Position numbers and translations under genes: made by a program | Assembly (NCBI GenBank): GCA_004322215.1 | Contig: SCSM01000011.1 | Span: 372,001-436,000, forward strand | Direction of reading: 5' to 3' | Origin: Bacteroidota bacterium | Lineage (GTDB): Bacteria > Bacteroidota > Ignavibacteria > Kapaibacteriales > UBA2268 | DNA: 64,000 nucleotides | In this document: in pieces, positions 2,341-35,421 of the stretch | Position numbering within the stretch: the first letter of the stretch is position 1 | How the letters are laid out: each line of letters opens with the position of its first letter | The notes under the pieces: generated by a model | Seen by the model: only the letters and a program-made list of their open reading frames with translations | Database searches by the model: none | Told to the model about the DNA's origin: nothing

Positions 2341-2407
2341 ATTATCGCATAGCGATAATATATTAATAGTGGATGATTATCTGCTTCCACACTTATCCCA
2401 TAGGGAT
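2341..2407. repeat. Two REP-like palindromes with three-base ATA loops
   Basis: ATTATCGC-ATA-GCGATAAT at 2341-2359 (8-bp perfect stem) and ATCCC-ATA-GGGAT at 2395-2407. The second, with its upstream flank (from about 2379) and following TATATA tract, is closely matched at 18671-18710. Same architecture as the palindrome cluster at 3967-4187. Confidence 0.75.
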
Positions 2408-3139: not shown

Positions 3140-3895
3140 ATGAATTCCGGATTTAATCTTAAGTCTTTACTTGTATCAATTGTTGTAGGTATAATTGTTG
3201 TCTTATTCTTTTCCTGGGCATCTGGAAGCAGGTTTGATACATCATTATTTCCTGTACTTGCAATGCTTACAGGGTTTATTATTACAGGATTCATAATAGC
3301 TATAATAACAAAAGGTGTTACAATAATAGAGCCGGCATTGGGTTCAATTATAGTAGCTTCAATTACATATTTTATTTTGCCAACTTTAAAGATAAAGGGT
3401 TTTGCTGAAATAAATCAGGATAGTGATTGGATTATAATTCTTATGAATGCGGTTGTTTTAACTTTCCTTGGCGCATGGCTTGGAGAGATGTTCCAACACG
3501 GAGAACTGACTAAAGAAGATAACAAAGCTTTATCATTTAATTGGGGATGGGTGTTTGCAGGAACTATTTTCGGAATATTGATAAGCATTATAATTGCCAT
3601 TGTTGTAAACTTGATTGTTGGAAATGAGCCATTTTATTTTATTATTCCATTCTTTATCGGACTATTTTTTACAGGGATTATGGTTGGACTTAAATCTCCT
3701 GGAATAACAATAAAAGAAGCGGGATTATCAGGATTTTTAACAATAACAATTTTAATTTCTATAGTTCGCTTGACTTTGGTAACAGAAATTGAGTTTGAAT
3801 ATATTATTCTCGGGTTGGTTCTTGGCTATGTTGTTGCTATGTTGGGCGGTTTGGCTGGTGAAAAAATTCAATCAGGAAAAGAAAAGACTGCCTAA
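3140..3895 (+). CDS. Polytopic membrane protein of unknown function inside the Mo-hydroxylase cluster
   Basis: 251 residues, mostly hydrophobic, with about seven or eight predicted membrane segments (roughly residues 8-27, 37-59, 64-82, 93-114, 131-157, 161-180, 188-207, 213-233). Soluble parts are short; the longest, around residues 115-130, is acidic (HGELTKEDNK). There are no Cys pairs, His clusters or nucleotide motifs to suggest catalysis. The start is well supported by AGGAGGT seven bases upstream. I do not recognise the family. Its place between hydroxylase subunit genes suggests co-transcription, but no mechanistic link (transport, membrane anchoring) can be shown from sequence. Confidence 0.8.
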   Translation: MNSGFNLKSLLVSIVVGIIVVLFFSWASGSRFDTSLFPVLAMLTGFIITGFIIAIITKGVTIIEPALGSIIVASITYFILPTLKIKGFAEINQDSDWIIILMNAVVLTFLGAWLGEMFQHGELTKEDNKALSFNWGWVFAGTIFGILISIIIAIVVNLIVGNEPFYFIIPFFIGLFFTGIMVGLKSPGITIKEAGLSGFLTITILISIVRLTLVTEIEFEYIILGLVLGYVVAMLGGLAGEKIQSGKEKTA

Positions 3896-3966: not shown

Positions 3967-4187
3967 GAATCACATAGTGATTCAATGTTTGTAACGTGAA
4001 GATAAAAGCTAACTCAGAATCTCGTAGAGATTCAACGTTTGTAATTATATATATGAATTCACAATCAGAATCTCATAGAGATTCAACGTATGCTTAAAGT
4101 AAAACTTGAGTTAACGTTCAATTCCTATGGAATTACTGTTAAAGTTAGGATATGCTCAGTTACAAACATATAATTTCTATGAAATTA
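3967..4187. repeat. Cluster of five REP-like palindromes upstream of the Y1 transposase
   Basis: This fills the 328-base gap before the transposase. Three units in forward orientation: GAATCAC-ATA-GTGATTC (3967-3983), GAATCTC-GTA-GAGATTC (4017-4033), GAATCTC-ATA-GAGATTC (4068-4084), each followed by CAAYGTTTG or CAACGTATG. Two in reverse orientation: AATTCC-TAT-GGAATT (4120-4134, preceded by AACGTTC) and TAATTTC-TAT-GAAATTA (4171-4187, preceded by TTACAAAC). All have three-base loops (RTA or its complement). The stems vary while complementarity is kept, which points to selection for or generation of the hairpin. This is the arrangement seen where REP elements sit beside their RAYT transposase. 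Confidence 0.85.
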
Positions 4188-4223
4188 TTATTATTATCGA
4201 ATAAAATTATTATTATAATTATT

Positions 4224-4685
4224 ATGGCTAATACTTACACTCAGGTTTATGTGCATCTTGTTTTCGTTGTTGAAGGAAGGCAAAATTTAATAACAAAAAA
4301 ATACAAAGAAAATTTAAACAAATATATTACAGGTATTATTCAAAATAGGGGACATAAGTTAATAATAATTAATGGAATGCAGGATCATATACATATTCTC
4401 ATAGGTTTATCTCCTGATGAATCAATATCAGGGCTTGTTCATGAGGTTAAAAGATGTGCTACTAATTTTATTAATGATAATAATTATATAAATGGAAAAT
4501 TTAGATGGCAGAAAGGATATGCTGCATTTTCATATTCAAAATCTAATATAGATAATGTATATAATTATATTAAAAATCAGGAAATTCATCATAAAGAAAG
4601 AACTTTTAAAGAAGAATATATGGAATTACTAAAAAAATTTGATATTAAATTTGACGAAAAATATATATTTGAAGATGTTATTTGA
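4224..4685 (+). CDS. IS200/IS605-type Y1 transposase (TnpA / REP-associated tyrosine transposase)
   Basis: Single-strand DNA transposase of the HUH superfamily. Starting at the ATG at 4224 the protein has 153 residues and the typical N-terminus MANTYTQVYVHLVF. An upstream in-frame ATG at 4152 would add a low-complexity Ile-rich leader overlapping a palindrome and is unlikely. The HUH motif is His55-Ile-His57 (DHIHI). The probable nucleophile is Tyr115 in NYIKNQ. The tail TFKEEYMELLKKFDI is usual for the family. No tnpB-like gene follows, and no matching palindrome is seen in the short spacer before the next gene. The gene lies within the Mo-hydroxylase cluster, directly downstream of five REP-like palindromes, so it is probably a domesticated REP transposase rather than a complete insertion sequence. 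It appears intact. Confidence 0.9.
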   Translation: MANTYTQVYVHLVFVVEGRQNLITKKYKENLNKYITGIIQNRGHKLIIINGMQDHIHILIGLSPDESISGLVHEVKRCATNFINDNNYINGKFRWQKGYAAFSYSKSNIDNVYNYIKNQEIHHKERTFKEEYMELLKKFDIKFDEKYIFEDVI

Positions 4686-4732: not shown

Positions 4733-7033
4733 ATGACAAAGAACTTAAAAATAATCGGGAAACCGACACCCAAGATTGATGCTAACATCCGTGTTACCGG
4801 CGAGGCACAATTCGGACACGATATTCAGCTTCCTAACATGCTATACGGAGCAATCCTGAGAACCAAATATCCTGTTGCTGAGATTATTTCTATAGATACG
4901 TCAAAGGCAAAGAAGTTGGAAGGTGTTAAATGCGTAATTACTGCCGATAATATTGATGTTAATAATATAAGTTACAGGAGAGACCATCCGATTTTAAAAA
5001 AAGGACAAGTGAATTGCATTCGTGATGAAATTGCCGCTGTGGCTGCAACATCCAAGGAGATTGCACAAAAAGCTCTTGAATTAATCGAAGTTAAATACAA
5101 AGTCAGGGAAGGAATCTTCGACCCGTTTGAAGCTATTAAAGAAGATGCACCTCAAATAAATCATTTCATAGACGGAAAATATCCCAATAAGAATATTGCT
5201 GAACATTTTCATTATGAACATGGCAATCTTGATGAAGAAAAAGCAATAAGTAAATATATAGTCAGTCACAGATACACTCTTCCAAGAGTTACTCACTGCT
5301 GTATGGCAACGAGTAATATGACTGCTGATTATTCAAAAACAGATGGCAAATTAACTCTGTACAGCACAACCCAGGTACCTTTTTTATACCAAAGAGACAT
5401 TGCACGTGCCTTAAAAATGGAACCGTCAAAAATCAGAATAATTCAAGTTGTCATTGGGGGTGGTTTTGGAAGCAAATTGGATATGTATCCTTATGAGCCG
5501 ATTTGTGCTTTGCTTTCAATGAAAACAGGACAGCCTGTCCAACTTATTTTTTCAAGGGAAGAAGAATTTATTGCATCCCCAACCCGTCAGACAATGATTT
5601 ATGATGTAACAGCCGGAGCAGACGAAAACGGAAGATTTACTTTCAGGGATGTAAGAGTCACTCTCGATAATGGTGCTTACACATCCTGGGGAGCAACAAC
5701 TCCATTTGTAATGATGCAAACTTTTTCTTCATTGTACCAATGCCCTGCCTGCAGATTCGATTCTACATCTGTATATACAAATAATGTATATGCCGGCTCA
5801 TTCAGGGGATATGGAAATCCACAAGCAACTTTTGCATTAGAAAGAACAATTGATATGCTTGCTGAAGAAATCGGAATGAGCAAATCAGAAATTCGTATAT
5901 TAAATGCAAATTTCAAGGGTGAAATTACCAAACAGGGTTTGCACTTTAATACCTGCGGTCATAAGGAAGCATTGGAGACTGTGATAGAAAAGGTTAAAGG
6001 TCATACACATCCCTTAGTCCCCTCTCAGGAGTGGAAAACTAAAAGGTATAAGCGGGGTGTGGGCTATGCTTCTATGCTCCATGTAGGAGGCGGTGCAAAA
6101 ATATATCCCTCAGACGGGTGTGGGACAACTCTCAAAATTGACCCGTTCGGCTATTTAACTATCATCACCGGGTCAAGTGAAATCGGGCAAGGTTCAGAGA
6201 CTGTGCTTGCAATGATTGCTTCAGAAGAGTTGGGAATTGATATTTCAAGAATAAAAGTAATTAATACAGACACTGATATAAAACCCTGGGACGTCGGTGT
6301 TCATGCCTCGAGGACAAGCTTTGTAGCTGGAAATTCCGTTCTTGGTGCTGTTAAAAAGTTAAAAGAGAAAATTTCTCCGAAAGCAGCTCAATTGTTAAAA
6401 ACAAATGTTGACGATTTAATCTATGAAAAGGGATTAATTAAATCCGTCATTAATGAAAGTTCAATCGAACTTGATAAAGTAGTGAGGGCTATTCACTTTA
6501 AAGAACCGGGAGAGTTGTGCATTGACACATATTTCTTTGAGCCAAGCAGTGAATTTGCCGATAATGAGTTCAAAGGAAATGTTTCAGGTGCTTATGCTTT
6601 TGCATCACAATCTGTCGAAGTTGAAGTAGATACATATACAGGAAATGTTAAAGTTTTAGATGTATATGTGGCACAGGACGTAGGCAAGGTTCTGAATCCG
6701 CTTGGATTGGCAGGGCAAATCGAAGGAGGTGTTGTTATGGGAATGGGCTATGCACTGCTCGAGGAATTAATAGTTGATAAGGGAATGATATTGAATCCAA
6801 ATTTTCACAACTATAAACTTCCGACTGCAATGGATGTTCCAGGAATTCATTTCTATCCGATTGAAACTGAAGATTCACTCGGTCCTTATGGAGCAAAAGG
6901 TGTCGGAGAAGCACCGCTTATTCCAACTGCTGCGGCTATTGCAAATGCCGTATCGGATGCAATAGGTGTTCAAATTGATTCATTGCCTGTTACTCCTGAG
7001 AAAGTGTTAAGAGCATTAGAAGAAAAGTTTTGA
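4733..7033 (+). CDS. Molybdenum hydroxylase large subunit (Moco-binding, xanthine dehydrogenase / aldehyde oxidase family)
   Basis: Catalytic subunit binding molybdopterin cofactor. 766 residues, normal for the stand-alone large subunit. The N-terminal hammerhead domain starts KIIGKPTPKIDANIRVTGEA. A cofactor motif GGGFGSK is near residue 241 and SFRGYGNPQ near 357, where an Arg is typical of hydroxylases acting on aromatic or N-heterocyclic substrates. The C-terminal catalytic glutamate is Glu726 in GVGEAPL, followed by the family tail PVTPEKVLRAL. GGGFGSK replaces the common GGGFGGK. The nearest motif match I recall is to 4-hydroxybenzoyl-CoA reductase / nicotinate-type enzymes, but the FAD subunit here lacks the extra [4Fe-4S] loop of 4-hydroxybenzoyl-CoA reductase. 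Substrate unassigned. It follows the transposase by 47 bases. Confidence 0.93.
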   Translation: MTKNLKIIGKPTPKIDANIRVTGEAQFGHDIQLPNMLYGAILRTKYPVAEIISIDTSKAKKLEGVKCVITADNIDVNNISYRRDHPILKKGQVNCIRDEIAAVAATSKEIAQKALELIEVKYKVREGIFDPFEAIKEDAPQINHFIDGKYPNKNIAEHFHYEHGNLDEEKAISKYIVSHRYTLPRVTHCCMATSNMTADYSKTDGKLTLYSTTQVPFLYQRDIARALKMEPSKIRIIQVVIGGGFGSKLDMYPYEPICALLSMKTGQPVQLIFSREEEFIASPTRQTMIYDVTAGADENGRFTFRDVRVTLDNGAYTSWGATTPFVMMQTFSSLYQCPACRFDSTSVYTNNVYAGSFRGYGNPQATFALERTIDMLAEEIGMSKSEIRILNANFKGEITKQGLHFNTCGHKEALETVIEKVKGHTHPLVPSQEWKTKRYKRGVGYASMLHVGGGAKIYPSDGCGTTLKIDPFGYLTIITGSSEIGQGSETVLAMIASEELGIDISRIKVINTDTDIKPWDVGVHASRTSFVAGNSVLGAVKKLKEKISPKAAQLLKTNVDDLIYEKGLIKSVINESSIELDKVVRAIHFKEPGELCIDTYFFEPSSEFADNEFKGNVSGAYAFASQSVEVEVDTYTGNVKVLDVYVAQDVGKVLNPLGLAGQIEGGVVMGMGYALLEELIVDKGMILNPNFHNYKLPTAMDVPGIHFYPIETEDSLGPYGAKGVGEAPLIPTAAAIANAVSDAIGVQIDSLPVTPEKVLRALEEKF

Positions 7034-7098: not shown

Positions 7099-7359
7099 AT
7101 GGATTTTTTACGAACTTTGCAAGAAAAAAAATATTTAAATAAGATTTCAGAAATGAAAACTAATGCAGAAATATATTTTGAAGAACAAATGAAAAATCCT
7201 GAATTTCGAGTTCACTATTCATTTGCAAGGGAGAAATATAAATTAGAATTTATGCTCGAAAAACTTATTGAAAATATTAATAGTGATTTTGAAAAAACAA
7301 AATTATTGAAACAGGCAAAGAAAATCGAAAAGTACGTTTCAAAAATTTGCTTAATGTAA
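7099..7359 (+). CDS. Small hypothetical protein (86 aa) within the Mo-hydroxylase cluster
   Basis: A charged, helical, Lys/Glu-rich protein without Cys clusters or membrane segments. The stretch FEEQMKNPEFRVHYSFAREK resembles the N-terminal leader of HigA/XRE-type antitoxins (which carry similar NPEFR..Y segments before their HTH), but no helix-turn-helix follows and the rest is a long helix ending KICLM. It may be a stand-alone helical adaptor or the remnant of an antitoxin-like gene. It sits between the large and FAD subunit genes on the same strand, with 65 bases before and 16 after, so co-transcription is likely. Coding status is moderately sure; function unknown. Confidence 0.55.
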   Translation: MDFLRTLQEKKYLNKISEMKTNAEIYFEEQMKNPEFRVHYSFAREKYKLEFMLEKLIENINSDFEKTKLLKQAKKIEKYVSKICLM

Positions 7360-15259: not shown

Positions 15260-17032
15260 TCACGCAGCAATCTGCTCCTTAAATTGCAATTGATAAAGTT
15301 TTGCATAGATGCCATTGAGTGAGAGCAGTTCTTTGTGAGTTCCCATCTCCCTGATTTTTCCTTTATGCAAAACGATTATTCTGTCTGCCCTTCGGATTGT
15401 GGAAAGACGATGAGCTATGATTATTGAAGTGCGATTCTCCAAAAGTTTTTCGAGCGATTCTTCAATAATTCTTTCTGTCTCGGAATCAATATTTGATGTT
15501 GCTTCGTCCAAAATCAAAATCTCAGGATTCATTGCATAAGCCCTGCAAAATGCAATCAACTGCCTCTGCCCTGCCGATAGTGCCGAGCCACGGTCAATCA
15601 TTTCAGTATCGTATCCCGATGAAAGCCGCTCGATAAAATCAGAAGCACCGAGAGCCACTGCAGATTTACGAATATCTTCCATACCGATATTCTCTTTGCC
15701 GAGTGATATATTATCCGCAAGCGACCTGGTAAATAAATATACTTCCTGTGTAACTAATGCAAAATGCTCTCTTAATGAATTTTGCCCGATGTCGCGAATA
15801 TTTTTTCCATCAATGAGTATTTCACCGTCATTGTAATCGTAGAACCTGCATAGCAAATTTATTATACTTGTCTTCCCTGCTCCTGTTGCTCCGACTATTG
15901 CGACAGTCTCCCCCTTTTTTACTGTGAATGTTACATCCCTCAACACCCACTTAGCGGAATCATAGCTGAACGACACATTCTTAAATTCAATCGCCTTGTG
16001 GAACCCATTCATATCTTTTGCATCAGCCCTGTCATCCGCTATATCCTTTGTGTCGAGTATCCCAAGAATCCTTTCAGCAGAAGCCATTGCACTTTGAAGC
16101 GTAGTAAACTTCTCTGTCAAATCCCTGATGGGTCTGAAAAACATTTCCGCATATTGTGTGAATGCTATCAAAATCCCGACTGTCATTACTCCCGAAATTA
16201 TATTCCCTGCGGAATACCACAATACAATTCCGAGGGCAATAGCACTCAGCATTTCGACTGTCGGAAAGAATATTGCATAATAGAAAACTGTCCTTACCCA
16301 CAAATCCTTATGCTTTGCATTAATGATGTCAAACTTGTTATTCTGATTTTCCTCCTGTGTGAATACTTTCACTGTGTTTATTCCCGTTATAAACTCATTC
16401 AGAAATGTATTCATCTCGGCAACTCTCAATCTTATATCCCGGAAAAGCACTCTCACCCTTTTCCTGAAGATAATCGTTGCAAGCAGCAATACAGGGACTA
16501 TTGATAAAGTCAGCAAAGCAAGCACAGAGTTTGTGTAAAACATAAATCCGATAATCCAGAAAATCAGCATTATGTCTGCGGCAATCATCACCACGCCCTG
16601 CGAGAAAAGTTCGTTCAGTCCTTCCACATCATTCGTTACTCTTGTTACGAGCCGCCCGACGGGGTTAGTATCATAGAACTTCATATTCAACGATTGAATG
16701 TGCTTAAAAACAGACATGCGTACATCAAACAAAACCTTCTGCCCAAGCCACTGCATGAGGTATGTCAGACCAAATCTGAGCAGAGCATTAAAAAGAAGTA
16801 GTACAGCAATTGCAAAAATAATCCCAACTAAACCATTCCAGTTCTTCGGTTCGATGTACTTGTCAATAGCGATTTTTGTCAGGTAAGGCAGAACAGGTGC
16901 AAGTGCCGATGATATTATAGTAATCACAACAGAAAGTGCAACCCACTTCTTATATGGCTTGAGATAGACTAAGAGCCGCTTCAGGATTTTCAGGTCTATC
17001 GCTTTGTATTCTTTATCTTCTTGTATGCTCAA
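15260..17032 (-). CDS. ABC exporter, fused membrane-ATPase half-transporter (MsbA/MdlB type)
   Basis: 590 residues. Exporter-type transmembrane domain (about residues 30-320, six helices) followed by a nucleotide-binding domain: Walker A GATGAGKTS (381-389), ABC signature LSAGQRQ (485-491), Walker B LILDEATSNID (Asp509, Glu510) and H-loop IIAHRLS. Works as a homo- or heterodimer at the inner membrane. Substrate unknown: lipids, peptides and drugs all occur in the family. No partner half-transporter is adjacent, so a homodimer is likely. GC content is somewhat higher than in neighbouring genes. Confidence 0.92.
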   Translation of the reverse strand: MSIQEDKEYKAIDLKILKRLLVYLKPYKKWVALSVVITIISSALAPVLPYLTKIAIDKYIEPKNWNGLVGIIFAIAVLLLFNALLRFGLTYLMQWLGQKVLFDVRMSVFKHIQSLNMKFYDTNPVGRLVTRVTNDVEGLNELFSQGVVMIAADIMLIFWIIGFMFYTNSVLALLTLSIVPVLLLATIIFRKRVRVLFRDIRLRVAEMNTFLNEFITGINTVKVFTQEENQNNKFDIINAKHKDLWVRTVFYYAIFFPTVEMLSAIALGIVLWYSAGNIISGVMTVGILIAFTQYAEMFFRPIRDLTEKFTTLQSAMASAERILGILDTKDIADDRADAKDMNGFHKAIEFKNVSFSYDSAKWVLRDVTFTVKKGETVAIVGATGAGKTSIINLLCRFYDYNDGEILIDGKNIRDIGQNSLREHFALVTQEVYLFTRSLADNISLGKENIGMEDIRKSAVALGASDFIERLSSGYDTEMIDRGSALSAGQRQLIAFCRAYAMNPEILILDEATSNIDSETERIIEESLEKLLENRTSIIIAHRLSTIRRADRIIVLHKGKIREMGTHKELLSLNGIYAKLYQLQFKEQIAA

Positions 17033-18531: not shown

Positions 18532-18837
18532 AAAATGTTGAGTGTTGAGTGTTTAGTGTTGAATTGCGGATGTCATTCTGAATTTATTTCAGAATCCATT
18601 GCCTAAAACCCTCATCAAATCAATATAACAATTCTATCCCGTAGGGATTATATATCGGTAACTACATCATATCTGCCTCCACCCTTATCCCGTAAGGATT
18701 ATATATTTGGTTGCACGCAGAGCCGCTGCGACGCGGAGAGGCGGAGAGCAAAGAAAAAGTCAATATTGATAAATAAGTTAATTTTAGTTTTAAATTAGGA
18801 CTAGTACAAGAGAAACTAATTTTTAATCACATATTAA
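18532..18837. repeat. Spacer packed with dispersed repeats
   Basis: No gene is seen. It holds: a heptad tract TGTTGAG, TGTTGAG, TGTTTAG, TGTTGAA, TTGCGGA (18536-18570); a TGTCATTCTGAA element with the palindrome TTCTGAA-TTTAT-TTCAGAA (18571-18599); REP-like ATCCC-GTA-GGGAT (18636-18648); a second, imperfect one at 18687-18699 with flanks matching those at 2379-2415; and a GC-rich ACGCAG...GCGGAGAG block (18715-18752) related to one at 43155-43175. Confidence 0.7.
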
Positions 18838-31098: not shown

Positions 31099-31464
31099 GA
31101 TTATTTAGTTGTGTTCAGGTTAAATTTTCAATTTAAAATTTTCAATTTTCATTAAACTTTCAAATTCCCAATTTTTTATATTGGTAATTAAGTATATATA
31201 GTTAATATTTATGAGTAAAGTGAAGAATCTTAAAAATGGGTGTAGATTCTTCATTTCACTTCGTTCAATTCAGAATGACATGAATACTAATTTAGCAATA
31301 GCCAAATTTTGTAATTAGTTATAACTGAAAAACATCAATTAATATTGCTATTCAAAATTGGTTCAATTATTGATAATGTTCATAAATGAAAGGGAGAACA
31401 TATATCAGAACGGTGTTCTGTCATTATATATTTATTAAATAATTATATTTAATTCTGAATTTAA
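31099..31464. repeat. 366-base repeat-bearing spacer
   Basis: No gene. A heptad-like tract (TTTTCAA, TTTAAAA, TTTTCAA, TTTTCAT) occupies about 31128-31177. TGAAGAATCT (31221-31230) and AGATTCTTCA (31244-31253) form a perfect 10-bp inverted repeat, the right arm running into a reversed TGTCATTCTGAA element (to 31280). A REP-like palindrome CAGAAC-GGT-GTTCTG with a three-base loop lies at 31406-31420. Confidence 0.65.
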
Positions 31465-35385: not shown

Positions 35386-35390
35386 AATCG

Positions 35391-35421
35391 TGTAGGGGCA
35401 GGTTATGAACCTGCCCCTACA
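35391..35421. repeat. Perfect 14-bp inverted repeat with ATG loop
   Basis: TGTAGGGGCAGGTT-ATG-AACCTGCCCCTACA. Perfect arms and a three-base loop, like the REP-type palindromes elsewhere in the window but longer and GC-rich. It lies between the terminator and the C1 peptidase stop. GTAGGGGCAGG palindromes are common dispersed elements in several phyla. Confidence 0.92.

Follow-up and report, generated by a model that had tools for sequence, protein, structure and literature searches.

Short DNA hairpins arranged as direct doublets accompany most genes of a group of small HUH/Y1 transposases, and gene and hairpins together probably constitute a REP/RAYT-like system that is built on an IS200-class enzyme (TnpA-Y1 subclass 1.2) and uses direct doublets rather than inverted REPINs. 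The stretch of DNA in which the system was recognized (the window, 64,000 nt in length, from a source genome of 4.2 Mb in 47 contigs) carries one such 'REPtron', consisting of the gene plus its hairpin array. The system appears to be a second, undescribed kind of partnership between a REP repeat and a domesticated transposase. If this is confirmed, the conversion of a transposase into a keeper of hairpins in the genome has happened on more than one occasion, starting from two enzyme classes.

The transposase gene and its hairpin array

Five perfect hairpins with RTA loops occupy positions 3967–4188 of the window, immediately 5′ of an intact HUH/Y1 gene at 4224–4685. Three are in one orientation and two in the other, as the original prediction had it. 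The members of the family in the window are as follows.

3967..3983, + strand: hairpin, 7 bp stem, ATA loop; first of a three-hairpin direct array; GTAA at 3991–3994 (+10)
4017..4033, + strand: hairpin, 7 bp stem, GTA loop; middle of the three-hairpin direct array; GTAA at 4041–4044 (+10)
4068..4084, + strand: hairpin, 7 bp stem, ATA loop; last of the array; without RTAR at +10, like most last hairpins
4170..4188, − strand: hairpin, 8 bp stem, loop TAT as read on the + strand (RTA on the − strand); first of the − strand doublet; GTAA (− strand) at 4163–4160
4120..4134, − strand: hairpin, 6 bp stem, loop TAT as read on the + strand (RTA on the − strand); second of the − strand doublet; without RTAR at +10
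4224..4685, + strand: HUH/Y1 transposase, 153 aa, with the subclass 1.2 signature (DHIH, WQ, YIKNQEIHH)
2341..2359, + strand: dispersed copy, hairpin 1 of a doublet; ATAG at 2366–2369 (+10)
2395..2407, + strand: dispersed copy, hairpin 2 of the doublet; without RTAR
18636..18648, + strand: dispersed copy, hairpin 1; GTAA at 18658–18661
18687..18699, + strand: decayed hairpin 2 (ATCCCGTAAGGAT), 51 nt from the 18636 hairpin

The centres of the five array hairpins (3975, 4025, 4076, 4127 and 4179) follow one another at a pitch of 50, 51, 51 and 52 nt. The window hairpins also obey the doublet rule described below, in that the tetranucleotide RTAR follows those at 3967, 4017, 4170 and 2341 and is missing after those at 4068, 4120 and 2395. 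A search of the window with GAATCTCATAGAGATTC (at most three mismatches) yields five matches at three places against 0.40 expected, a number that none of 100 shuffles reaches. Single copies fold as DNA only moderately better than shuffled sequences, with z-scores of −1.9 to −3.3 for six of them and −0.45 for the hairpin at 18636. At gathering thresholds, Rfam detects only a tRNA in the window and nothing at the hairpin sites, and no hairpin is found close downstream of the transposase gene.

Further palindromes with a loop of the same size had been proposed at five sites, and those at 2341 and 2395 (which form a doublet) and at 18636 belong to the family. The sites at 31406 and 35391 were rejected as members. 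The former has a GGT loop (CAGAAC-GGT-GTTCTG at 31408–31422) and, standing outside the doublet family, is perhaps an operator. The latter has a 13-bp stem and an ATG loop (GTAGGGGCAGG); this palindrome, GTAGGGGCAGGTT-ATG-AACCTGCCCCTAC at 35390–35421, is intergenic and unrelated to the doublets. The array itself is preceded by the gene of a 251-aa membrane protein (3140–3895), and the transposase is followed by what we take to be a molybdopterin-type oxidase gene (4733–7033).

The transposase frame could begin at 4152, and the alignment with homologs begins at MANTYTQ. The protein matches Pfam Y1_Tnp at 7e-26 and places DHIH at residues 54–57 and WQ at 95–96; H55, H57, W95, Q96, Y115, Q119, H122 and H123 are invariant among 44 aligned sequences. 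The Y---Q--HH motif is present in 76 of 83 homolog translations, the seven exceptions being six short translations of 1–62 aa (L025, L030, L073, L077, L085 and L088) and one that is identical to an IS200-type protein (L031). The RAYT motif NP[LVI][RK]xG, a pattern taken after the available text of Nunvar 2010 (PMC2817692), occurs in none of the 83. The window protein scores 73.6 with the NCBIfam IS200 model (cut-off 55) and 27.9 bits with the RAYT model (cut-off 80). An AlphaFold model computed from 44 sequences (pLDDT 92.8) has the TnpA proteins of ISDra2 and IS608 as its nearest structures (Z 12.8, 108 residues, rmsd 2.2–2.3); for the RAYT structure 4er8, Z is 10.7. Judged by its protein signature, the enzyme is assigned to the IS200 class, TnpA-Y1 subclass 1.2.

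Three homologs in all are encoded in the source genome, and they are 100, 59 and 39% identical to the window protein; the window gene is therefore not a multicopy insertion sequence, and a search for multiple identical copies of it in the genome returned none. A plasmid search added two nearer relatives, from Bernardetia (55%) and Persicobacter (39%), the others being IS200-like at 27–30% among the 25 records listed of 155.

The doublet unit at homologous loci

Homologs were drawn from two collections. One was a set of 60 genomes, counting the source genome, of which 25 gave a match; the other was GTDB, whose genomes contributed 56 loci, mostly of Bacteroidota, with others from Ignavibacteriota, Chlorobiota, Calditrichota, Balneolota, Cloacimonadota and Acidobacteriota. 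In a phylum-wide search a homolog was present in 88 of 198 sampled genomes, again counting the source genome. A hairpin was defined by its triloop, C(RTA)G or C(GNA)G, on a stem of at least 5 bp, and by a position within 600 nt upstream or 400 nt downstream of the gene. The RTA class derives from the window, and the GNA class was added after inspection of the homolog loci, whereupon the rules were fixed for validation. The resulting set of 78 loci leaves out those of the source genome, three near-duplicates (L041, L047, L079), the fragments L091 and L093, and L033, which had no tblastn hit; it retains the hairpin-less locus of the IS200-type protein mentioned above and several fragments.

At least one hairpin is found at 65 of the 78 loci and at least two at 54. 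RTA/GNA hairpins near the 78 genes number 225; dinucleotide shuffles yield 1.65, and 6 are found in far flanks totalling 248 kb. The validation set of 28 new loci, drawn from the phylum-wide search and scanned 800 nt to either side, contains 25 positive loci and 87 hairpins against 1.3 in shuffles; near-copies (at least 88% over 200 nt) were sought within and between the two sets, and no further ones were found. Hairpins thus adjoin the gene at 90 of 106 homolog loci in the two sets together. They lie close to the gene ends, with medians of 67 nt upstream of the start and 35 nt downstream of the stop. No hairpin of the set definition is present at 13 of the 78 loci and 3 of the 28 validation loci, nor at the third homolog of the source genome (C5:19689), where only weak AAGGTT repeats are seen. 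The short stems and the modest folding of single copies would suit unrelated palindromes (terminators or chance), or another element's MITE, that happen to cluster at the gene, an explanation to which we assign next to no probability in view of the association at most homolog loci, the small number of hairpins in far flanks, the fixed position and spacing described below and the lack of Rfam matches at the hairpin sites.

Where hairpins lie on both sides of the gene, they mostly face each other. The arrangement +gene− is found at 28 of 36 such loci (80 examined), the remaining 8 having the same orientation on both sides, and in validation at 9 of 12 (28 examined). This inverted arrangement bears on the possibility that the locus is an ordinary IS200/IS605 insertion sequence with two subterminal hairpins. 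The IS200 model score and the proximity of the fold to those of IS608 and ISDra2 speak for such an element, yet it would have its two ends on one strand; it is already contradicted by the flanks, by the lack of identical or near-identical copies in the genome and by the occurrence of hairpins without the gene, and we consider it highly unlikely.

The hairpins at homolog loci have stems of mostly 5–8 bp and a C(RTA/GAA/GCA/GGA)G triloop. Of 246 hairpins, which come from 67 loci (two in the source genome), 127 have an RTAR beginning at +10 past the 5-bp stem, with 16 for the next commonest position; among the 87 validation hairpins the count is 42, with 12 for the next position. The distance between same-strand neighbours peaks at 50–52 nt in the first set, where 67 of 97 same-strand neighbours and 2 of 44 opposite-strand neighbours are 47–56 nt apart. 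The corresponding counts in validation are 21 of 30 and 6 of 20; all six of the latter come from two loci (L238 and L224), and the same-strand rule therefore has exceptions. The presence of RTAR depends on the rank of the hairpin: in the first set it follows 47 of 51 first hairpins, 11 of 51 second hairpins, all 20 in the middle of an array and 51 of 128 single ones, and in validation 19 of 20 first, 2 of 20 second and 20 of 46 single hairpins. From the position of RTAR, the pitch of 50–52 nt and the occurrence of RTAR after the first and not the second hairpin, the typical unit on one strand is hairpin 1, 9 nt, RTAR, about 25 nt, hairpin 2. What had been noticed from the window is extended here by the spacing of about 51 nt, the rule of same-strand doublets and the position of RTAR at +10.

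Mutual information, computed over 66 distinct hairpins that have RTAR, reveals no clear guide/cleavage-site pairing like that of IS608, and the +10/+13 pair is unconvincing. The strongest pair is the stem-foot position just outside the 5-bp stem (A.G in 80 of 147 cases, T.T in 24, A-T in 19 and T-A in 8), which covaries while being mostly mismatched and may be a recognition feature.

Dispersed copies and their pairing with the enzyme

Across the source genome, ATCNCRTAGNGAT is matched 39 times, on 15 contigs, and its reversed control 3 times, so that the enrichment expected of a REP-like repeat is present. At two free positions, where the pattern does not require pairing, 35 of the 39 matches are complementary (chance 25%, p = 2e-17). 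Both sides of the stem vary, and the compensatory changes first noticed in the window are thereby substantiated. With a longer pattern (at most two mismatches), three congeners have 105 (G001), 113 (G003) and 26 (G002) matches against control counts of 0, 0 and 1. The hairpins of the source genome are mostly intergenic, 4 of 42 falling within ORFs against an ORF cover of 77% for the DNA concerned. Among the 100 places listed of the 113 in G003, on 35 contigs, there are 24 same-strand pairs 49–54 nt apart, 46 of the places belong to such doublets, and opposite-strand neighbours within 400 nt are not found.

Whether copies are dispersed differs between lineages. In a distant genome on a single contig (G164), 28 matches are found against a control of 0, with 9 within 1.3 kb of one transposase gene, at the locus from which the pattern was taken, and 19 elsewhere. 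Dispersal is nevertheless not universal, because in another distant single-contig genome (G238) all 6 matches are at the transposase locus. Copy numbers run from tens to about a hundred per genome, not thousands. On five contigs of the source genome (C17, C19, C29, C31 and C40) hairpins approach a contig end to about 500 bases or less, and assembly breaks may therefore hide further copies. G002 has its 26 hairpin matches, yet the sole homolog found there is 37% identical, in an assembly that is 91% complete; it may be that hairpins persist after the enzyme has been lost, or that the gene is absent from the assembly. On C40 of the source genome, a partial Y1 frame (16731–16925) lies about 100 nt from a doublet-type hairpin at 16625 and is perhaps the remains of another such locus.

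Hairpin subfamilies are tied to individual enzymes. In the source genome, subfamily 1 (stem GAATCNC, tail AAYGTTTGTAA) is located at the window gene, and subfamily 2 (stems such as ATCNC, tail of the type TATATGTCTATAG) at the homolog on C17. The closest relative of the C17 gene in the protein tree, on contig C150 of G001, has the same hairpins; the nearest relatives of the window gene (G001:C24 and G003:C11) have a similar tail and a different stem. Across 60 loci the loop type (GAA versus RTA) tracks the enzyme tree, with 3 changes against 10.3 after shuffling and none of 500 shuffles as low, a match that joint inheritance of the locus alone could produce. The last base of RTAR, taken as a co-evolving trait, gives no signal on the same tree (10 changes against 11.2 shuffled).

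Known systems, candidate mechanism and possible turnover

TnpA-Y1 subclass 1.2 was first characterised, by the paper's own account, in Quentin et al. 2018 (PMC6006769), where Table 1 lists REP as 'no'. The automatic REP search described in the available text of that paper asked for GT[AG]G at 0–2 nt 5′ of the stem and for a stem of at least 7 bp, and because both were required, the doublet hairpins would escape it. The enzymes considered here resemble the subclass as described there in Y---Q--HH, WQ, DH[IV]H, a length of about 150 aa, low copy number and low intragenome identity, and their occurrence in Bacteroidetes. They differ from it in that most loci carry hairpin doublets. Since the signature defines the subclass and hairpins occur at 65 of 78 and 25 of 28 loci, the REP-less label given to subclass 1.2 in that text needs correcting, and a likely substrate is supplied for an enzyme subclass previously described as having none. 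No earlier description of the doublets was found in the openly available literature. For Y1 transposases or REPs together with Bacteroidetes, the matches listed were limited to PMC6006769 and PMC3733652, neither of which describes doublets in its available text. The GTAG/CGTC palindromic repeats of the second of these papers (Di Nocera 2013), as they are presented there, likewise are short-stem intergenic palindromes that occur in dimers.

The general layout is that of class-2 REP/RAYT systems as set out in the available texts of Nunvar 2010 (PMC2817692) and Corneloup 2021 (PMC8266576), with a low-copy gene, inverted flanking hairpins, dispersed intergenic copies and hairpin subfamilies tied to their enzymes. 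To this extent the REP/RAYT-like organisation that had been proposed for the window holds, namely a low-copy, non-identical Y1 gene, inverted hairpins flanking most relatives and dispersed copies between genes. Identity with the gammaproteobacterial system does not hold. In contrast to the systems of those papers, the enzyme is of the IS200 class, the GTAG foot is lacking, RTAR lies 3′ at +10, and the pairs are mostly same-strand doublets instead of inverted BIMEs or REPINs. A GT[AG]G foot 5′ of the hairpin was found in 1 of 246 hairpins (0 on the other strand) and in 0 of 87 in validation. A classical class-2 RAYT of gammaproteobacterial type with canonical GTAG REPs would explain a single gene, inverted flanking hairpins and dispersed hairpins; its defining features contradict it, in the absent NP[LVI][RK]xG motif, the near-absent foot, the RAYT model score below cut-off and the mostly direct doublets, and it is scarcely credible. 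As far as its sequences indicate, the system would work like REP/RAYT and yet stand outside the class-2 RAYT family, two of whose defining features it lacks.

A parallel to the doublet is offered by the ends of IS200/IS605 elements. As described in the available text of PMC5934647, IS608 TnpA is a dimer that binds hairpins of single-stranded DNA and cuts at tetranucleotides, and in its circular intermediate the right end is joined to the left. From that description the circle junction would read, on one strand, right-end hairpin, cut site, left-end hairpin. The present system shares with IS608 and ISDra2 the fold, Y---Q and, if this order is right, two same-strand hairpins flanking a tetranucleotide as in the RE-LE junction. 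Unlike IS200/IS605, it has no transposon body between the ends, its gene is outside the unit, and identical copies are lacking.

By analogy with these elements, the substrate of the enzyme would be single-stranded DNA, such as that of a replication fork. Acting probably as a dimer, as the TnpA proteins of IS608 and ISDra2 do, the enzyme would grip both hairpins of a doublet and cut the intervening RTAR or a position adjacent to it; this is suggested because the order within the doublet matches that of the circle junction. Doublets would be copied or moved in trans, and the enzyme's own gene would stay single-copy. It is also possible, although we hold it only tentatively, that an IS200/IS605 circle junction, with its cleavage tetranucleotide between the right-end and the left-end hairpin, was domesticated as the doublet and is now itself the replicating unit. 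REP/RAYT would then have had a second origin, in IS200-class enzymes and with direct pairs. The pitch of about 51 nt and the single RTAR between the hairpins amount to a prediction of what the enzyme binds and cuts, one that in vitro work can address directly; annotation of the doublets in Bacteroidota and related phyla is straightforward.

Comparison with congeners bears on whether the doublets move. Alignments of intergenic sites are noisy, and the one clear case is an absence in G003. The doublet cluster at C20:371534 of the source genome is missing from the syntenic site of that congener. For one doublet of G003, the matching site of the source genome contains a decayed one. The 2341–2407 doublet is matched by a doublet at the orthologous position in G003, and G001 has the other subfamily at this position. 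An alternative, which we regard as unlikely, is a domesticated, non-mobilising role: the hairpins would be retained as binding sites through which the transposase gene or its neighbours are regulated or the chromosome is processed, and would no longer be spread by the enzyme. The position of hairpins close to the gene ends, their restriction to the transposase locus in G238 and the G003 counterpart of the 2341–2407 doublet fit such a role, but it leaves unexplained the dozens of dispersed doublets that share one internal rule and the differences in presence at syntenic sites. The preferred reading remains a REP/RAYT-like system whose doublets would be mobilised by the IS200-class enzyme.

The spot orthologous to the window locus in G001 and G003 lacks both the gene and the hairpin array and contains other ORFs instead. 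A precise empty site for the window gene was sought; the replacement is not clean, the congeners carrying other genes there, and no insertion event with exact edges was found among the congeners compared. In both congeners (L167 and L168) the first ORF after the membrane protein gene is presumably nucleotidyltransferase-like, and different ORFs then follow; the transposase site there is a variable cassette spot. Two similar-looking small ORFs were also seen, one in the window at 7099–7359 (86 aa) and the other on C5 of the source genome (about 69 aa, at about 1082–1291 of locus L003), where it adjoins the third Y1 homolog; we take both to resemble antitoxin-type proteins.
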